Origin: an uncultured Bacteroidales bacterium
Lineage (GTDB): Bacteria; Bacteroidota; Bacteroidia; Bacteroidales; UBA932
Direction of reading: 5' to 3'
Assembly: GCA_944326255.1 (NCBI GenBank)
Contig: CALVDG010000008.1
Span: 1 to 64,000, forward strand
Length of the DNA stretch: 64,000 nt
The notes under the pieces are model-generated. The model had not been told where the DNA came from. It did not search any database and saw only the letters and a program-made list of their open reading frames with translations. The position numbers and the translations under genes were made by a program. Positions 48,346 to 56,400 of the stretch are shown here, in pieces; position 1 is the first letter of the stretch; the number at the start of each line of letters is the position of its first letter.

Positions 48346-48960
48346 ATGGATTGCGACATTTACAGCCTCCCACTCTTTTCCGGAGGAGATAAAGAACTAA
48401 TAAACAACATCCTGCAGGAGAATCCCGCAAGACACAGACTTTATGCCAAAGGAGACATCATCGCCCTTCAGGGCTATGTCTGCAAGCAGCTTTACCTGCT
48501 GTGCAGCGGCAGTGCATACGCCAGGATGGTCAGCGAGGAAGGCAAGGAATTCACTCTGGACACCCTGAGCGCACCGGAAGTGCTTGCATCGGCATTCCTG
48601 TTCAGCACCGAGGGCATTTTCCCCGTCACCATCATCGCGGCCTCGGACTGCAGCATCCGGCTCATAAGCCGGGAAGCCATGCTGCGCATCCTGAAAGCCG
48701 ACCAGAGAGTGATGCAGAACTACCTGAGAGTCATTTCCGACCACAGTATGTTCTTGAGCAACCGGCTGGTGGAATTTGCCCTGCAGACCCTCTCTTCCCG
48801 CATCGTAAGCTATATTGAGAGCAACGGGCCCATCACCAACCTGCAGGAGACCGCCTTCATCCTCGGCGTAGCCCGTCCGTCCCTCTCCAGAGCCGTCTCC
48901 CAGCTCGTCGCACAGGGCACCCTCGTCAAGACCGCCCAGGGCTACGCCCTCTCCGCCTGA
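48346..48960 (+). CDS. Crp/Fnr-family transcription regulator
   Basis: A 204-residue regulator. The N-terminal cyclic-nucleotide-binding fold (about 20-110) has KGDIIALQGYVCKQLYLLCS. The effector helix is about 113-140. The C-terminal HTH (about 155-204) contains NLQETAFILGVARPSLSRAV. Cysteines are present in the N-terminal domain (VCKQLYLLC), but the cysteine cluster of Fnr is absent, so oxygen sensing by Fe-S is not implied. It is divergent from the lipoprotein operon and probably controls it and itself through the palindrome at 48303-48316. Confidence 0.88.
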   Translation: MDCDIYSLPLFSGGDKELINNILQENPARHRLYAKGDIIALQGYVCKQLYLLCSGSAYARMVSEEGKEFTLDTLSAPEVLASAFLFSTEGIFPVTIIAASDCSIRLISREAMLRILKADQRVMQNYLRVISDHSMFLSNRLVEFALQTLSSRIVSYIESNGPITNLQETAFILGVARPSLSRAVSQLVAQGTLVKTAQGYALSA

Positions 48961-49058
48961 CCGCAAGACAAAGCGTTCCACAAAGCCGGACACTATAAAT
49001 AAAACAAAAAAACATACTGCAATGACAGGAGACAAGTATGGTATCTCAAAAAAATCCG

Positions 49059-49066
49059 TAATTTTG
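49059..49066 (+). promoter_or_regulatory. Candidate -7 box of the channel/SIR2-TIR/STAND operon
   Basis: TAATTTTG matches TAnnTTTG and lies 29 bp before the ATG at 49096. No clear -33 TTTG at 19-20 nt. Confidence 0.45.
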
Positions 49067-49095
49067 CGCACATACTGTTTATTACCCTGAACTAT

Positions 49096-51228
49096 ATGAA
49101 AATAATCATTGACATAATCGGAGTCATCGGCATACTTTACTGGCTGCTGACCTTATTTGTATTGATCAGAAGGCCCATTCTGAGAGACCGCTGCATCATC
49201 AACGGATTCACCAAATACGTACTTCTGCTGGTAGTCCTGACCCCTTTCGCCATGGAGTTTATCGTCTCCAACTGCTGCGGCATGGTATCTCCAAGAGAAC
49301 TGGTTTACACCCCGGACCTGTATAAAGCTCCGGACAATCAGCTTTCCGATACCATCAGAGCCAGACAGGAGGATCCATCCTGGCTATGGGGCATTTATTA
49401 TCTGATGATCGATCCCGGCAACCAGCATATGACGACATCGCAACCAGGCAGGGCCGTGGGTGTAATCATGGCTATCCTGGGCGTTTTCCTGCTGAACGGC
49501 CTGCTTGTATCCACTTTGATGAGTTGGTTTGACCGCAGAAAGGAGAGATGGCTGAAAGGCGAGATCCGATACCGGAATCTGAAAGGCCATACCGTCATAA
49601 TAGGAAGCGGCCCAACCGTATCGGGAATAGTCAGGCAGATAACAGACAGAAAGGGATATGTACTGATCATGACTTCCTGCGACGTCGAGACTTTCAGAAG
49701 GGAACTGTTCTCTGTTCTCCCTGAGTCCGAGCATAAGAAAATAATACTGTATTACGGAGACAGCAGCTCTGAAAAAGATATCCGCAGCCTCCGCATAGAT
49801 GCTTCTGTGGAAGTCTACGTGATAGGAGAGATTTCAGATCAGGATGATACAGGTGCCTGCGCAGACATATCCAACATGAGATGCCTCCAATTAATCGCCT
49901 CATGCTGTTCCGGGATGGAAGGACGCATCACATGCCGCGCCATGTTTGAATCTCAGACTACGCACTCTGTTTTTCAGTTTTCAGACATAAGTGACACTCT
50001 TAAGGCGCACATTGACTTCAAGCCGTTCAACTTCTATGAGCAATGGGCCCGCAACGTACTGGTCAACTGGCCAGGCAAACTGTCATCACGCAGGTACCTG
50101 CCTCTGGAAGGAGAGAACGGCATATCGGCTGACAGTCGAGACCAGGTCATACTGTTTATCGCCGGCATGACCCGCATGGGCCTTGCGATGGCCGTGGAAG
50201 CCGCTCATCTGGCTCATTATCCCAACTTTGCAACAAAAGGGATAAAAACCCGGATCTCATTCATAGACATAAACGCCGAACAGGAGGCCCGGTCTTTCAT
50301 TTCCAGATTCAACGGACTGTTCCGCAATTCATCATGGCGCATCACAGATGCCGGATCATACGACAGCGGCCAATGGCACATTCCGGAAGGTGCCGGCTGG
50401 CTTGGCGATGATGTCACGGATGTGGAATGGGAATTCATCAAAGGCGACATTGACGACCCGGCCATACGCAACCTGCTCTCAGCGTCAGCCGGCCGCACCG
50501 AGACAAGGATGACAGTGGCTGTATGTTCCGACAATCCGGACAAAGCCGCTGCATCAACATTATATCTTCCGGACGAAGTGCTCCATAAAGCCGTCCAGAT
50601 ACTGGTTTACCAGAGAAAAGGCGCATCGGTAATAGACAGCATCTCCAAAGACTGCGCGGGCAACACTGTCTACCGAAGCGTTCATCCGTTCGGAATGGCT
50701 GCTGAATGTTATGACAAAGCTGTCATTCAGGCCTCGGAAGACATAGCACTGAGACTTTCCCAAGCATATGCGGAAACATGTACGGCACTTGGCCACAACC
50801 GTTCCAGCACCGGCCACGACAACACATCCGGCAAACAGTACAAAGGGAAATCCGCTGCCGCAAAATGGTGGTCCAATATATACAACGCAGATACAGTATG
50901 GTCAAAACTGCGTTCAATAAATTATAAGGGTGGAAAAATATCCGACAATGACGACATACTTGCCAGAACCGAGCACAGCAGATGGAATATGGAACAGCTG
51001 CTGATGAGATTCCGTCCACTGACTCTGGAGGAGCAGAAGGAACTGCTGAACGGCAATCTGGACAAGGAGGCTCTGAAAGGAGAACGGATGGCTCATTCCA
51101 ACATATGCTCATGGGAAAGGTTGAAAGAAATCGATCCGGATGCCATACTATATGACAAAGCCATGATAGAGGCTCTGCCGGAAGTATATGAATACACATT
51201 GACTGCACATGGGAAGGATAGCAAATAA
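49096..51228 (+). CDS. CASTOR/POLLUX-like channel with RCK-type domains and C-terminal RyR domain
   Basis: A 710-residue membrane protein. TM1 is about 4-24, TM2 about 41-57, then a pore-loop-like segment WLWGIYYLMIDPGNQ (97-110) and TM3 about 118-142. The DPGNQ sequence recalls the D-x-GNH filter of plant CASTOR/POLLUX channels (recalled, not computed). Two Rossmann/RCK-like domains follow: HTVIIGSGPTVSG (165-177) and VILFIAGMTRMGLAMA (351-366) with acidic RISFIDIN. The C-terminus (about 620-700) is a RyR domain: ILARTEHSRWNMEQLLM, HSNICSWERL and YDKAMIEALPEVY. A nucleotide-gated channel is plausible. First gene of a three-gene operon, overlapping the next by 20 bp. A/T-richer codon choice (more ATA and AGA) than the housekeeping neighbours hints at transfer. 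Confidence 0.82.
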   Translation: MKIIIDIIGVIGILYWLLTLFVLIRRPILRDRCIINGFTKYVLLLVVLTPFAMEFIVSNCCGMVSPRELVYTPDLYKAPDNQLSDTIRARQEDPSWLWGIYYLMIDPGNQHMTTSQPGRAVGVIMAILGVFLLNGLLVSTLMSWFDRRKERWLKGEIRYRNLKGHTVIIGSGPTVSGIVRQITDRKGYVLIMTSCDVETFRRELFSVLPESEHKKIILYYGDSSSEKDIRSLRIDASVEVYVIGEISDQDDTGACADISNMRCLQLIASCCSGMEGRITCRAMFESQTTHSVFQFSDISDTLKAHIDFKPFNFYEQWARNVLVNWPGKLSSRRYLPLEGENGISADSRDQVILFIAGMTRMGLAMAVEAAHLAHYPNFATKGIKTRISFIDINAEQEARSFISRFNGLFRNSSWRITDAGSYDSGQWHIPEGAGWLGDDVTDVEWEFIKGDIDDPAIRNLLSASAGRTETRMTVAVCSDNPDKAAASTLYLPDEVLHKAVQILVYQRKGASVIDSISKDCAGNTVYRSVHPFGMAAECYDKAVIQASEDIALRLSQAYAETCTALGHNRSSTGHDNTSGKQYKGKSAAAKWWSNIYNADTVWSKLRSINYKGGKISDNDDILARTEHSRWNMEQLLMRFRPLTLEEQKELLNGNLDKEALKGERMAHSNICSWERLKEIDPDAILYDKAMIEALPEVYEYTLTAHGKDSK

Positions 51229-52504
51229 CCATCAGGACACCCGGGATCTGGCGCTTACGGATCTATGCTGTGACATATATCAGGGGGATTATGTTCTTGT
51301 AATCGGAGGCGACGTGATACTAAAGCCCGAATACGCCGGTGGCAACTCCCAGAACTACATCATTCAGGACTATATCAACAACGAGTGTCTTAACAGCAAC
51401 AGAAAGTATCTGGAGCGGAGCTCCCAGGAGCATAAAATAAGAATAAGGGACATTCTCAGAAACGAGTGGAGATACGACAGGGAGGAACTTTCAGAAGACC
51501 TCATCTCCCTGTTGTCCACAAAATGCTTCCGAATTGTAATCACTACTGCGTTTGACGGTTATCTGGAGACTTTAATGCGCAGCATATATGGAGATTCACT
51601 CCGGGTAATGAATATTTACGACACAAAGGACATCAAGTCCTTCTGTCATACCTCAGAATACAATGCAATACCTCCGACCCTATATTATGCTTTCGGAAAA
51701 GCCGACTCAGGCTACGACTATGTGCTTTCAGAAAACGATGCGATAAAAGCCATATCCAGATGGCTGGGCAACTATGCTCCCACGGATATGATAGATTATC
51801 TCAAAGGAAAGAAGATACTGGCCATAGGCTGCAAGTTCGACGACTGGTATTTCCGGTTCTTCTGGTACTGCCTGAGACAGGACTTCGAGCATCTTTCAGG
51901 AGATGTCGCAATATCTCTCCAGACAGACAAGTCCGAGTCAGACCGGCATCTCGCTGAATATCTCGCCAAAATCAATGTCGGAGACAAGGGTAACTCCCAA
52001 CGGTTCATACATGAGCTCAGCCTCCAGCTTCACGATCCGGAGAACAATGTATACAGCAAATACCGCAACAGACTTATGACCGGCGGTGTTTTCATCTCAT
52101 ATGCCTCGGAGGACTTTCCCATTGTCTGTCAGATTTATTCCATACTGAACCGTTCCGGCATTAGAGTATGGTTTGATGACAAGGAGCTCAACGGAGGAGA
52201 CCGATATGACATACGGATATCCAACGCCATCAGTGAATGCCGTATCTTCATACCTGTCCTCAGTGCTCAGACCAAGTATGACATCGACAACAAAAGACAG
52301 CGTTACTACAAAGATGTAGAGTGGAAAGCAATAGAAGACAATAAGACATGTGCGATACTGCCTCTTACCTTAAGCGGTTTCGACATCAGGTATGACAGAG
52401 ACTTTGTCCCTGAGATATTCCTTGAAGAGACCTCAGTAAACTGGACAAAAGACGGAGGAGAAGGTATACTGAACGCCATAAACAGATTAATGAGGCAGTC
52501 ATGA
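51209..52504 (+). CDS. SIR2-like/TIR fusion protein
   Basis: A 431-residue cytoplasmic protein. The N-terminal SIR2-like part (about 20-285) shows YVLVIGGDVI (28-37), ITTAFDGYLETL (111-122), LYYAFGKADS (158-167) and ILAIGCKFDDWYFR (203-216). Active SIR2 domains have TTN and HG at the second and third places; here these are TTA and FG, so NADase activity of this half is doubtful. The C-terminal TIR domain (about 291-430) has FISYASED (295-302) and DVEWKAIE (369-376), keeping the catalytic-position glutamate E376 and the W-x3-E spacing. It probably cleaves NAD+ or makes a cADPR-like messenger when clustered. The start overlaps the channel gene; the stop overlaps the STAND gene by ATGA. Confidence 0.85.
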   Translation: MGRIANNHQDTRDLALTDLCCDIYQGDYVLVIGGDVILKPEYAGGNSQNYIIQDYINNECLNSNRKYLERSSQEHKIRIRDILRNEWRYDREELSEDLISLLSTKCFRIVITTAFDGYLETLMRSIYGDSLRVMNIYDTKDIKSFCHTSEYNAIPPTLYYAFGKADSGYDYVLSENDAIKAISRWLGNYAPTDMIDYLKGKKILAIGCKFDDWYFRFFWYCLRQDFEHLSGDVAISLQTDKSESDRHLAEYLAKINVGDKGNSQRFIHELSLQLHDPENNVYSKYRNRLMTGGVFISYASEDFPIVCQIYSILNRSGIRVWFDDKELNGGDRYDIRISNAISECRIFIPVLSAQTKYDIDNKRQRYYKDVEWKAIEDNKTCAILPLTLSGFDIRYDRDFVPEIFLEETSVNWTKDGGEGILNAINRLMRQS

Positions 52505-55500
52505 TACAGAATCCATGGAAAGGACTGGCTCCGTACAGAGAGCCGAAAGACACCGATGAGAGCTCATATCTGTTCTGCGGAAGGGACAAGGCTGCACGGG
52601 AACTGACCTCGCTGATTAAAAGCAGTCTGTTCGTCACATTATACGGCAGGACGGGTGTCGGAAAGACCTCCCTTCTGGAAGCCGGCGTATTTCCCATGCT
52701 CAGACCTGCCGGATACATTCCCGTGCCCGTCCGCCTAAGTATGGACGGAGCTGACGGCAGGATGACATCCTTCGCCGGTTGTATTACTGACGCTGTCGAA
52801 CGTACGGTAAACGACATACGGCTCACAGCCGCCCCCGTGCATACAGACACATCGGACAAGGATTATCTGTGGGAATATTTTGCGACCAGGCATTTCTACG
52901 AGGGAGACCGCGAAGTGTTTCCAGTAATAGTCATAGACCAGTTTGAGGAAAATTTCTCCGTAGATAAGGAGGGGACATGGAGACTGATGGAACAGCTTCA
53001 TTCCCTTATGGATGACAATAAGATATACCCTGACAATTACCATAATGAGACCATATTCAGGATTGTTCTGTCCATCAGAGAAGATGACCTCTACCGTCTT
53101 GAGGACTGCATTGACCAATTAAATCTTAATGATTTCAAATTCAACCGTTACCGTCTGACCCAACTTTCCGATGACGAGGCAAGGGAAATAATAGTCATCC
53201 CCGGAGCCGGTATCCTGCCGGTCAATGAAAACGACAGGGAAACAGTTGTCAGGGCCATAATAAAAGTAGTCAAGGACGGGAACGACGGAAACATAAACAC
53301 CCTGATACTGTCCCTGGTATGCAGTGTACTCTACGACAGAATCAAGGAAAAGGACAGCGATATCATAACCCTTGACGATGTCCATAATCTGGGCACCAAC
53401 CCTCTGAAAGACTTTTACCTGTCCATCGCTGCAGGATTCCACAAGTACCGGTCATATATTGAGGACAGACTTGTTGATGCGGACGGAAGACGCAACTCTG
53501 TTCACCGGGAGGAGATGAGCCGTAACTTCCCATACTGGGAATCCCTGCTTACAGGCAGTAAACGGATACTCCAATGCTCCAACGACAAAGTAGAGCTTAT
53601 TCACGACATGCTCGCCAGAGCGATATATGATGTCAGGCTGCAAAGGGACAATAAGAGAAAAAGCCGTATTGCCCGCATAAGCATACTGATGTTTCTCGCC
53701 GCAGCCTTTGTCTTCGCTGTTTTCAGTACCGTATACGACATCAGCGGAAAAGACCATACCAGGCTCCAGGCTTTCCCCAGAGAAGGTATCGTCACGGACT
53801 CCGGTTTTTTCAGCGACAACCGCACGGAAAAGCTTGTCTGGGAGGGCACAGGTGCTTTGGAAATATCCCATTGTCCGTCGCTCAGACATATTGTCATATC
53901 CAATCCTGCGACATACATTCATATCAATGACTGTCCGAATCTGACTACTATTGAATTTCCATGCGAATCGGTATCTTCCCTGAACATAAGTAACTGCCCG
54001 AATATAAGGAATCTCAATATTCCCGAACAGATCAGCAGTATAAACACATACGGCACTACACGTATAAACAGCATCATACCTCCGGACAGTCACAGATATG
54101 AATGGCTGGACGGCATACTCTGGGACATACAGCGTAAGAAAGTGGTATTCATATCCGATGACAGGAATATAAGCAACGGTATCTGCTTCCCATATGAGAT
54201 GAGAGACCGTCCCTACTACATCTACAGCGCCAGTGACACCCTGCGCAACACCGGCATATGGATAGATAATCTGCTCTTCACCCGGGATTCTTCCAGAATC
54301 ATATCTTCCATAAATCCCCTTGGCCCTGTCCTTGATCTCAACAAGTATCCGGGCCTCACCTATATTGAGAGCAATGCTTTCCATAAAGGCAACGGCATCC
54401 GCAAGCTGATCCTGAAAAAAGGGCTGAGCCTGTTCTCGTCCAGATCCTTTGACAGCCTCAGCGAACTGGACACTATTGAAGCTCCGGAGAATACCGCTTT
54501 GTTTGACATTGTATCCAAAAGAAAAATAACATATGTAACGGACGGGAATGACACATACAACAACACCTGCGGAATCATCAGAAGGAACGGGGAACCGGTA
54601 TGGATATCGTCCGAATATCCGGACGATGTCTATACAGAAGGATCGCTGCAGGACCTCAATGGTCTGACGATACTCTCTCCCGGATTTTACTGCCGGGCCG
54701 TAAATTTCAACGGAAATATAACCGTTACACTGAACGGAGGAATCACTGACCCTGAGATTGCCGGGAAGATATCCGCTCTTACTTCCGTTTTTGACATAAT
54801 CAACTACCGCGGCAATTCATTTTTCAAAACCACTCAGGGCAGTTCATACGCTTCCGTACTGAGTCCTTCATCCCGTACCCTGCATATTCCCCCGGACATT
54901 CATATTCTGGATTGTTCCGGAATCTCTCCGCAAACAAACGACATCATCATTGAAAGTACAGAATTTGACAGATTTCTCAATCTGCCCGACTCTTTAAGGC
55001 GAAGAATATCCATATACGTTCCGTTCGGACATCAGAACTCATTCCTCAACAGAGAGGAATTCAAACAATTCCGGTCAATAAACAAGACGGATTTATGCTC
55101 CACTCTTTATTACAATGTCACTTATTTAGTATATCGGGCATACCACACTTTACATGAAAGGCCAGGATTGACCGTCATGCTTACAGCAGGCCTTCTGATT
55201 ATATGCATACTGTTCTATATCCTGAACACGACACGTTATATAAGGAGATTCCAAGACAGAAAAGTCCTTATTATAAGGAGCTGTGTTTCCAGCCTGATAA
55301 TGACCCTGATCACTTTATTCAGTTGGATTGTGGCTTTCTGGCTCATAAGGTATGCCTTCAACACTGAGACCTACTGGGTATGTGTCACAGGAGCGTCCAT
55401 CTTCGCAATATCAGTACTGTTCTCCTTATATTACAGTACTCTTATGGAATTCAAGAAGCTTAAGGCCGGCAGTATTATGCTCTCATGCCTGAAAAACATC

Positions 55501-56400
55501 CGTCATGCTACTGCCGGAATCATCATCAGAATGCTGTCTGCCGTCAAGGATTTCTGCAGAGTTCACAAGTCTCTGCTCCGCATTTTCTCAGCGGTACTGG
55601 TGGCTGTCACTGCCATCATATGCATATACCTTATAAGTTACAGCAGGTCTGAGCGCAGATTACTCGCGGAAGTTCAAGCACTTGCGTCAAGCAGAAATAC
55701 TGCCGGAAAAGAAAAGGCCCTGGCAATGCTGACTGAGTATCTGGATAAAGACAGCAGCATAATCAAGACATCTTCCTCCAAAGCCTTTGACATACTGCTG
55801 GACTTGGCAAGAGAACTTCAGTATGATTATATAACCGGCATTCCCGCAGCAGACTGTAAAGATGACGATATAGTCTATTCGCGTGACAGTTCTATATATG
55901 CAGAGATATCCGAAAACGGTGTCATAACGCTATGGGGAGCAGAATCAGAACAGTTCGGACAAAAGATAGAATTTCACAAAACAGCTACGGATATCGACAT
56001 AAGTCAGGACGGCACAATGATTACAGCCGCATGTGGAGATATTCTTACTGATTATGACATTGCAGTTTACAATATCAGAAGCAAGATGTCCTACTCCATC
56101 TACTGCGGATTTCCGATAGAAGATATATGTTTCAGCCCTGACAACAGATATATCGCCACAGGTTGCTCCGACAGATATGTAAGGATATGGGATTTATCAC
56201 TCAGCCCAGTGGAATGCACCCGTAAACTGAAGACAGACAGCTACAACGACATACGCAGGATATATTTCAGCGATAACGGAAAACTGCTGTATGTATGCCT
56301 TAACAACGGGACTATGGACATCTGGAGTCTCGATGACCGTCCTGACAGCCAATTTATATTGGAAGCCTGCCGCAGTCATCTGGACAGACGGAACCGCTAG
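52501..56400 (+). CDS. Membrane-anchored STAND NTPase with LRR and WD40-like repeats
   Basis: A 1299-residue protein. An nSTAND1-like NTPase (about 1-380) opens with NPWKGLAPYREP and FCGRDKAARELTSL, Walker A LYGRTGVGKTSL (47-58) and Walker B VIVIDQFEE (142-150), ending in a winged-helix-like LIHDMLARAIYDV (366-378). TM1 is about 391-411. Leucine-rich, BspA-like repeats (about 435-700) include LEISHCPSLRHIVI, HINDCPNLTTIEF and LNISNCPNIRNLNI. Four more TM segments lie at about 890-1050, and WD40-like repeats follow (about 1110-1299: NGVITLWG, DRYVRIWDLS, MDIWSLDD). This is an NLR-like sensor with ligand-sensing repeats on a membrane scaffold. It is coupled to the SIR2-TIR gene by an ATGA overlap. 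It ends 4 bp inside the convergent ABC-F gene. Confidence 0.85.
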   Translation: MIQNPWKGLAPYREPKDTDESSYLFCGRDKAARELTSLIKSSLFVTLYGRTGVGKTSLLEAGVFPMLRPAGYIPVPVRLSMDGADGRMTSFAGCITDAVERTVNDIRLTAAPVHTDTSDKDYLWEYFATRHFYEGDREVFPVIVIDQFEENFSVDKEGTWRLMEQLHSLMDDNKIYPDNYHNETIFRIVLSIREDDLYRLEDCIDQLNLNDFKFNRYRLTQLSDDEAREIIVIPGAGILPVNENDRETVVRAIIKVVKDGNDGNINTLILSLVCSVLYDRIKEKDSDIITLDDVHNLGTNPLKDFYLSIAAGFHKYRSYIEDRLVDADGRRNSVHREEMSRNFPYWESLLTGSKRILQCSNDKVELIHDMLARAIYDVRLQRDNKRKSRIARISILMFLAAAFVFAVFSTVYDISGKDHTRLQAFPREGIVTDSGFFSDNRTEKLVWEGTGALEISHCPSLRHIVISNPATYIHINDCPNLTTIEFPCESVSSLNISNCPNIRNLNIPEQISSINTYGTTRINSIIPPDSHRYEWLDGILWDIQRKKVVFISDDRNISNGICFPYEMRDRPYYIYSASDTLRNTGIWIDNLLFTRDSSRIISSINPLGPVLDLNKYPGLTYIESNAFHKGNGIRKLILKKGLSLFSSRSFDSLSELDTIEAPENTALFDIVSKRKITYVTDGNDTYNNTCGIIRRNGEPVWISSEYPDDVYTEGSLQDLNGLTILSPGFYCRAVNFNGNITVTLNGGITDPEIAGKISALTSVFDIINYRGNSFFKTTQGSSYASVLSPSSRTLHIPPDIHILDCSGISPQTNDIIIESTEFDRFLNLPDSLRRRISIYVPFGHQNSFLNREEFKQFRSINKTDLCSTLYYNVTYLVYRAYHTLHERPGLTVMLTAGLLIICILFYILNTTRYIRRFQDRKVLIIRSCVSSLIMTLITLFSWIVAFWLIRYAFNTETYWVCVTGASIFAISVLFSLYYSTLMEFKKLKAGSIMLSCLKNIRHATAGIIIRMLSAVKDFCRVHKSLLRIFSAVLVAVTAIICIYLISYSRSERRLLAEVQALASSRNTAGKEKALAMLTEYLDKDSSIIKTSSSKAFDILLDLARELQYDYITGIPAADCKDDDIVYSRDSSIYAEISENGVITLWGAESEQFGQKIEFHKTATDIDISQDGTMITAACGDILTDYDIAVYNIRSKMSYSIYCGFPIEDICFSPDNRYIATGCSDRYVRIWDLSLSPVECTRKLKTDSYNDIRRIYFSDNGKLLYVCLNNGTMDIWSLDDRPDSQFILEACRSHLDRRNR

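Follow-up and report, generated by a model that had tools for sequence, protein, structure and literature searches.

The effectors of known TIR systems include enzymes and macro-domain proteins among others, and in animals the axis formed by cyclic ADP-ribose (cADPR) and the ryanodine receptor has long been debated. A direct contact between cADPR isomers and a RyR domain has been described for the phage protein RyDEP, which binds these isomers via H75, W78, H100 and D117, residues conserved in animal RyR, and hydrolyses 2'/3'cADPR using H75 and D117. Among eight phage homologues that were assayed, binding of 2'/3'cADPR was seen for six and hydrolysis for none (PMC13232231, text available in part). 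In the animal receptor, Repeat12, a pair of RyR domains, binds adenine nucleotides and closes on them like a clamshell (PMC12627627, available in part). Two channels are also relevant here. CASTOR passes Ca2+ through a predicted filter A-D265-S/A-G-N-H-A, in which D265 is needed and the D265N change abolishes current (PMC6697748, available in part), and both ADP and NAD+ open GsuK (PMC3510474, available in part).

In the literature searched, a scope without the most relevant preprint (Yirmiya et al.), no description was found of a RyR-tailed RCK channel beside a TIR gene. The available part of PMC7159879 does not mention RyR or ryanodine, that of PMC9503650 contains neither term, and in that of PMC8195603 the word "ryanodine" occurs twice. 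Such an arrangement is described here for a locus of a Bacteroidales bacterium from the gut.

A three-gene cassette in a variable site

The window, by which we mean the whole stretch of DNA that was analysed (64,000 nucleotides), contains a 710-aa open frame that is a real ORF and is followed by two further genes on the same strand (Table 1). The start of the SIR2-like/TIR gene overlaps the end of the channel gene by 20 bp, and the start of the STAND gene overlaps the end of the TIR gene by 4 bp. The sequence-only reading of this DNA had recognised the channel and the adjoining TIR gene, and the latter is borne out by its PF13676 match (8.6e-14); the STAND gene, the second RyR protein of the relatives and the variable, defence-like site had been overlooked.

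Table 1. Features of the channel locus, in window coordinates
Feature	Position	Strand	Basis
Accessory cassette: channel, SIR2/TIR and STAND genes	48954..56390	+	Absent from congener G017
RyR-tailed RCK channel, 710 aa	49096..51228	+	ORF, alignment, AlphaFold2 model, structure matches
Predicted membrane helix TM0 (aa 2-25) and outer pore helix (aa 39-60)	49099..49275	+	AlphaFold2 model, Kyte-Doolittle peaks
Predicted pore helix (aa 96-105) and filter D106-P-G-N-Q110	49381..49425	+	AlphaFold2 model, filter columns, alignment to GsuK filter region
Predicted inner pore helix (aa 116-153)	49441..49554	+	AlphaFold2 model
RCK1 (aa 166-322)	49591..50061	+	AlphaFold2 model; CASTOR/DMI1 profile match; Slo-like_RCK in relatives
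RCK2 (aa 350-540)	50143..50715	+	AlphaFold2 model, structure matches
Divergent RyR-like domain (aa 619-708) with H627, W630, H667, D687	50950..51219	+	Pocket columns, profile comparison, fold matches
SIR2-like and TIR protein, 431 aa	51209..52504	+	PF13289 5.8e-6 (aa 109-256), PF13676 8.6e-14 (aa 294-389)
TIR domain, candidate catalytic Glu371	52088..52375	+	Pfam match, alignment; motif assignment tentative
nSTAND1 NTPase with membrane segments, LRR_5 and WD40 region, 1299 aa	52501..56400	+	PF20703 1e-21, LRR_5, WD40

The cassette is 7.4 kb long and is absent from a congener (G017, locus L080). There, the left flank is 99.1% identical to the window up to 48953, and on the right the match to the window begins again at 56391 (90%), so that 48954-56390 is missing cleanly and the gene order CRP-(cassette)-ABC-F of the window becomes CRP-ABC-F. 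Two other congeners (G018 and G014, loci L074 and L079) carry another cassette beside the same ABC-F gene; the gene set of G014 is same-sized, and the G018 cassette, the one scanned, gave weak matches to Wadjet JetB/JetC and a strong match to an MkoA-like helicase. The site is thus variable, exchangeable and defence-like. The Crp/Fnr gene at 48346-48960 was considered as a part of the system and rejected, having no homologue in the other loci and being kept in the cassette-less G017. Between the window and its closest relative (L001), the pore is 95-100% identical, compared with 60% for RCK1, 49% for RCK2 and 65% for the RyR region, and the STAND proteins share 72-86% over their first 500 residues and 37-62% beyond. 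A defence system fits these observations because the cassette is accessory and exchanged, with fast-changing cytosolic and sensor regions.

The TIR proteins of the window and L001 share 84% identity. A glutamate, E371 in the window protein, stands beside a tryptophan in the window, L001 and L008, and this glutamate-tryptophan motif, which we take to mark the catalytic residue of TIR domains, makes E371 a tentative candidate for that role. SIR2 enzymes have an asparagine and a histidine at the positions where the SIR2-like part reads TTAFD and FGKADSG, and because of these replacements that part is probably inactive. In the STAND protein, the LRR_5 region is flanked by hydrophobic segments (aa 388-415 and, on the other side, within 887-1050); since such segments are similarly ordered in four STAND proteins (window, L001, L005, L008), the STAND protein is probably a membrane protein, perhaps one that senses at the envelope. 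TIR and nSTAND1 genes also adjoin the channel in L005 and L008.

Pore and gating ring of the channel

Searched alone, the channel protein gave nothing useful from Pfam, PADLOC, NCBIfam or PDB: it matched no Pfam family at E<=1, no PDB sequence and, at E<=1, none of the PADLOC models, by which it is not recognised as a known ThsA-type effector. Relatives were therefore collected and a family alignment was built. Seventeen loci came first, and 11 of 59 related genomes gave matches; the short loci L018-L031 were exchanged for L054-L063. The alignment (A1) holds 25 channels, L009 being left out as too partial. A search for channel relatives on plasmids found none.

The AlphaFold2 model of the channel (pLDDT 84.8, pTM 0.82) places helices 2-25 and 39-60, a pore helix (96-105), an inner helix (116-153), RCK1, RCK2 and a helical tail in this order. 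The segment WLWGIYYLMIDPGNQ had been assigned to the interval between the second and third membrane helices, and this agrees with the model, where the pore helix lies between helices 39-60 and 116-153. Its placement in a pore loop is also supported by the family profile, which aligns the filter stretch to the filter region of the K+ channel GsuK. Against the PDB, the same profile matched CASTOR (2.1e-6), DMI1 (6.9e-6), GsuK (1.3e-4) and an RyR1 chimera (0.0012), and Pfam Slo-like_RCK matches 18 of the 25 family members. The best structure match among those listed was the DMI1 gating ring (Z 19.2, 302 residues, 3.4 A), and the listed matches also include GsuK (Z 18.3, 362 residues, 6.6 A) and CASTOR (Z 18.0, 324 residues, 3.6 A). 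The RCK-like Rossmann domains expected after the pore are accordingly present as two units, and the protein is an RCK-gated channel of the GsuK/CASTOR type.

The filter of the window channel reads M-I-D106-P-G-N-Q-H and is of a non-K+ type, and a K+ channel of the TVGYG kind was rejected for want of such a filter. The D-x-G-N pattern is present in 17 of the 25 A1 rows; in L008 it has been lost, although the TIR-STAND set there is the same as that of the window. By analogy with CASTOR, Ca2+ selectivity of the window channel would be a reasonable guess and no more. The likeness to CASTOR/POLLUX proposed earlier stands for the RCK ring and, more tentatively, for the CASTOR-like filter. Full membership was rejected, given three membrane helices predicted by the model and hydropathy versus four in CASTOR, and a protein that on its own has no Pfam match. 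In one subclade of the family (L012, L013, L015 and L016), G-A/Q-T/S-N-Y-P stands in place of D-x-G-N, which suggests a different ion preference. For the RCK glycine loop, the nucleotide motif used for comparison is G-x-G-x-x-G; the family consensus in A1 is G-x-x-x-M-V-x-G-L instead.

A divergent RyR-like domain at the C-terminus

Since the window protein alone has no Pfam match, the assignment of its tail to the RyR domains is made through the family, of which 9 of 25 members match PF02026 at E<=1 (best 2.1e-6). An alignment of the tails (A2, comprising 23 of the 25 A1 rows, with L025 and L027 left out) was compared by hhalign with one of 17 standalone RyR proteins of about 100 aa (A3, longer RyR proteins being left out). 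The two matched at 91% (E 1.1e-6), compared with 1.2% for reversed A2 and at most 0.3% for 20 column shuffles. When folded alone (pLDDT 85.0), the C-terminus had RyR domains as its ten best rows in both the Foldseek and the VIA lists; the scores were weak, with a best Foldseek E of 2.8, and VIA gave Z 6.5 over 77 residues at 3.9 A, with unrelated rows at Z 3.1 or below. Altogether, profile and fold comparisons agree with the RyR tail named in the sequence-only reading and indicate a RyR-like domain that is divergent and weak by sequence.

The four ligand-contacting residues of RyDEP, H75, W78, H100 and D117, correspond to H627, W630, H667 and D687 of the window channel, so that all four are kept, including both residues of the RyDEP catalytic dyad. 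All 25 A1 rows keep W630, H667 and D687, and 23 of them keep H627. The standalone proteins of A3 have a spacing identical to that of RyDEP (+3, +25, +42; H37, W40, position 62 and D79), with asparagine at position 62 in 3 of 17 rows. The distance between H627 and H667 in the window tail is 40 residues, versus 25 in RyDEP.

Association of the RyR tail with TIR genes

Among 26 Bacteroidales loci of the channel family (L054, which is the same place as L001, and L063, a 368-aa partial protein without the pore, are left out of these counts), a TIR gene lies within 7 kb in 11. From the per-genome TIR counts, 0.46 would be expected if TIR genes were scattered, an assumption that overstates the significance. 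In seven loci the nearest TIR gene is within 3 kb on the same strand, and in L005 and L057 it is on the opposite strand. The other 15 loci have no TIR gene in the available DNA, some of their contigs being short. In two genomes (G000 and G012), the one TIR_2 match of the whole genome is that of the channel operon.

More distant channels were sought with the channel profile in 395 Bacteroidota genomes and by a RyR search of 395 (a RyR match in G154 was left out). Five RyR-tailed RCK channels were found outside the Bacteroidales family (L082, L083, L084, L116 and L118), and in all five a TIR gene belongs to the same operon-like run. In L082 it lies 5 bp upstream of the channel gene and in L116 24 bp upstream; in L083 the two genes overlap; in L084 it is again upstream, with two other genes intervening; and in L118 it follows the channel gene directly and contains an in-frame stop codon. 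By comparison, none of 16 CASTOR-like channels from the profile search that lack a RyR tail has a TIR gene on its contig, and 9 of the 16 genomes have no TIR_2 match anywhere. The Fisher value for 5/5 versus 0/16 is 4.9e-5, and its true weight is lower because the five channels form one clade from four genera and are not independent events. Two genomes (G071 and G092) carry both kinds of channel, with a TIR gene beside the RyR-tailed one only. The two kinds are split by a fully supported branch (100/100) in a midpoint-rooted tree with long branches. A search with ThsB_TIR (PF08937) yielded no further channel-adjacent TIR gene. The RyR tail and the TIR gene thus go together in distant channels too, whose pores are different.

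Additional RyR proteins

Of the 26 distinct Bacteroidales loci, 22 also encode a RyR protein apart from the channel and no more than 7 kb away from it; for 17 of them the distance is at most 500 bp. Such a protein is missing from the window, L001, L006 and L009, the last of which is a short locus. A hidden second RyR protein in the window or in genome G000 was rejected: nothing convincing was found among the window ORFs, and the A3 profile gave nothing at E<=1 in G000, an assembly about 90% complete, so that a copy in the missing part may have escaped the search. Two of the far channels (L082 and L083) have two RyR stretches in one tail, the first of them weak, and the animal Repeat12 is likewise a pair. 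It appears, then, that RyR domains occur as pairs, and the window channel, with one per subunit, would have to pair them across subunits.

RyR domains were also met in other settings. In 20 genomes of genus g100 (L115, L117, L119, L120 and most of L085-L114), AAA-type proteins of mostly about 880-940 residues end in a tandem RyR; in the four of these genomes that were opened, neither a TIR gene nor a channel was found nearby. Twelve viral contigs (L121-L132) encode RyR proteins 52-67% identical to a bacterial standalone RyR, which are candidate RyDEP-like anti-TIR proteins, and A1 patterns detected no channel relatives in viral contigs. One short contig from a viral database, found via its RyR (L130:4001-7740), has a standalone RyR gene with a TIR gene directly after it and, where the contig ends, a channel-like ORF on the opposite strand. 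Near the channel/RyR genes of L002 and L057, both of which lack a close TIR gene, an M48 peptidase with a zinc ribbon (L002:2444-3322 and L057:6594-7469) and a small zinc-ribbon protein (L002:3609-4124 and L057:7774-8289) recur.

Proposed function and alternative explanations

We read the three genes as a Thoeris-like TIR signalling system with an ion channel as its effector, and assign this reading a probability of roughly 0.6. The membrane-anchored STAND protein would detect an intruder and switch on the SIR2-like/TIR enzyme, which would use NAD+ to make a messenger of the ADP-ribose type that is probably one of the cyclic ADPR isomers. Binding of the messenger to the C-terminal RyR domain would move the RCK gating ring and open the pore to cations, perhaps Ca2+, whose flow would stop or kill the infected cell. 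As judged from the proteins encoded, the channel is probably opened by a TIR-made signal. Counting against this mechanism are the 15 of 26 loci with no TIR gene in the available DNA, the restriction of D-x-G-N to 17 of 25 rows and its loss in L008, the lack of a separate RyR protein in the window, the weak sequence signal of the RyR tail, the AAA-type RyR proteins with neither TIR gene nor channel nearby in the four genomes opened, the stop codon in the TIR frame of L118 and the single clade formed by the five far channels. A more specific version is offered tentatively, as a possibility on the doubtful side: a bacterial TIR protein would signal through a cyclic ADP-ribose isomer to the RyR domain of a Ca2+ channel, with RyR domains paired in a clamshell (as a tandem in cis, or fused plus separate) and possibly a built-in hydrolase timer, a logic equal to that of the animal cADPR/ryanodine-receptor axis.

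Instead of, or besides, sensing the messenger, the RyR domain might remove it by hydrolysis or as a sponge, shutting the system off or protecting the host. RyDEP, with its H75 and D117 hydrolysing 2'/3'cADPR and six of eight phage homologues binding it, is a precedent (PMC13232231, available in part), and standalone RyR genes adjoining the channel would suit a regulator. Because the window tail keeps both dyad residues, slow hydrolysis and gating could coexist. Fusion to a gating ring, however, is the usual position of a sensor, and the tandem RyR tails of the far channels resemble the nucleotide-binding clamshell of animal RyR, so that messenger removal appears unlikely to us. We rate as quite improbable that the RCK domains themselves are gated, by NAD+/ADP as in GsuK or by ions, while the TIR protein depletes NAD+ and the RyR tail only assembles subunits. 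GsuK is a top structural match and does respond to ADP and NAD+, but the family glycine loop is not of the G-x-G-x-x-G form, and both the link between RyR tail and TIR gene and the conserved pocket would go unexplained.

TIR and channel genes could also be neighbours by chance or because defence islands are densely packed, with no link in function, and the variable, defence-like site and the nearest TIR genes of L005 and L057, which lie on the other strand, would be in keeping with this. Against such an effect stand the overlapping genes of the window, the conservation of the set in L001, L005 and L008, the contrast of 5/5 with 0/16 in far channels, and the 11 of 26 Bacteroidales loci versus an expected 0.46 (an expectation that overstates significance); we consider chance clustering very improbable.

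If the interpretation as a TIR system with a channel effector is true, TIR systems would gain an electrical or Ca2+ arm in the form of an ion channel that senses through a RyR domain. Such a channel would also offer a simple, purifiable model for the sensing of cyclic ADPR by RyR domains, which for animal RyR is raised as an open question in the available part of PMC13232231. The RyR proteins of phages would then have evolved against, or from, such systems, for which the 12 viral contigs encoding RyR proteins are relevant.

Comparison with known systems

The channel resembles CASTOR, POLLUX and DMI1 in the CASTOR-type fold of its RCK gating ring, by profile and by structure, and is partly like CASTOR in its non-TVGYG filter with D-x-G-N (I-D-P-G-N-Q-H in the window and A-D-S/A-G-N-H-A in CASTOR, with D-x-G-N in 17 of 25 rows). 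It differs from these channels in its three predicted membrane segments, compared with four, in its C-terminal RyR-like domain and in its place in a bacterial operon with TIR and STAND genes. With the nucleotide-gated GsuK it shares a 2-TM pore and two RCK units in one chain, but GsuK is a K+ channel with another filter and without a RyR tail. The tail is like phage RyDEP, PF02026 and the animal Repeat12 in its four ligand-contacting residues and helical fold; unlike RyDEP and Repeat12, it is fused to an RCK channel, with one divergent repeat per subunit and longer loops. As in Thoeris, a TIR protein is accompanied by a partner with a domain of a family able to bind cyclic ADPR isomers. The effectors of Thoeris are SIR2-SLOG ThsA or macro-domain ThsA, according to sources available in part, whereas here the corresponding partner is a RyR-tailed channel, and the window system adds to the two a probable membrane protein of the STAND type.
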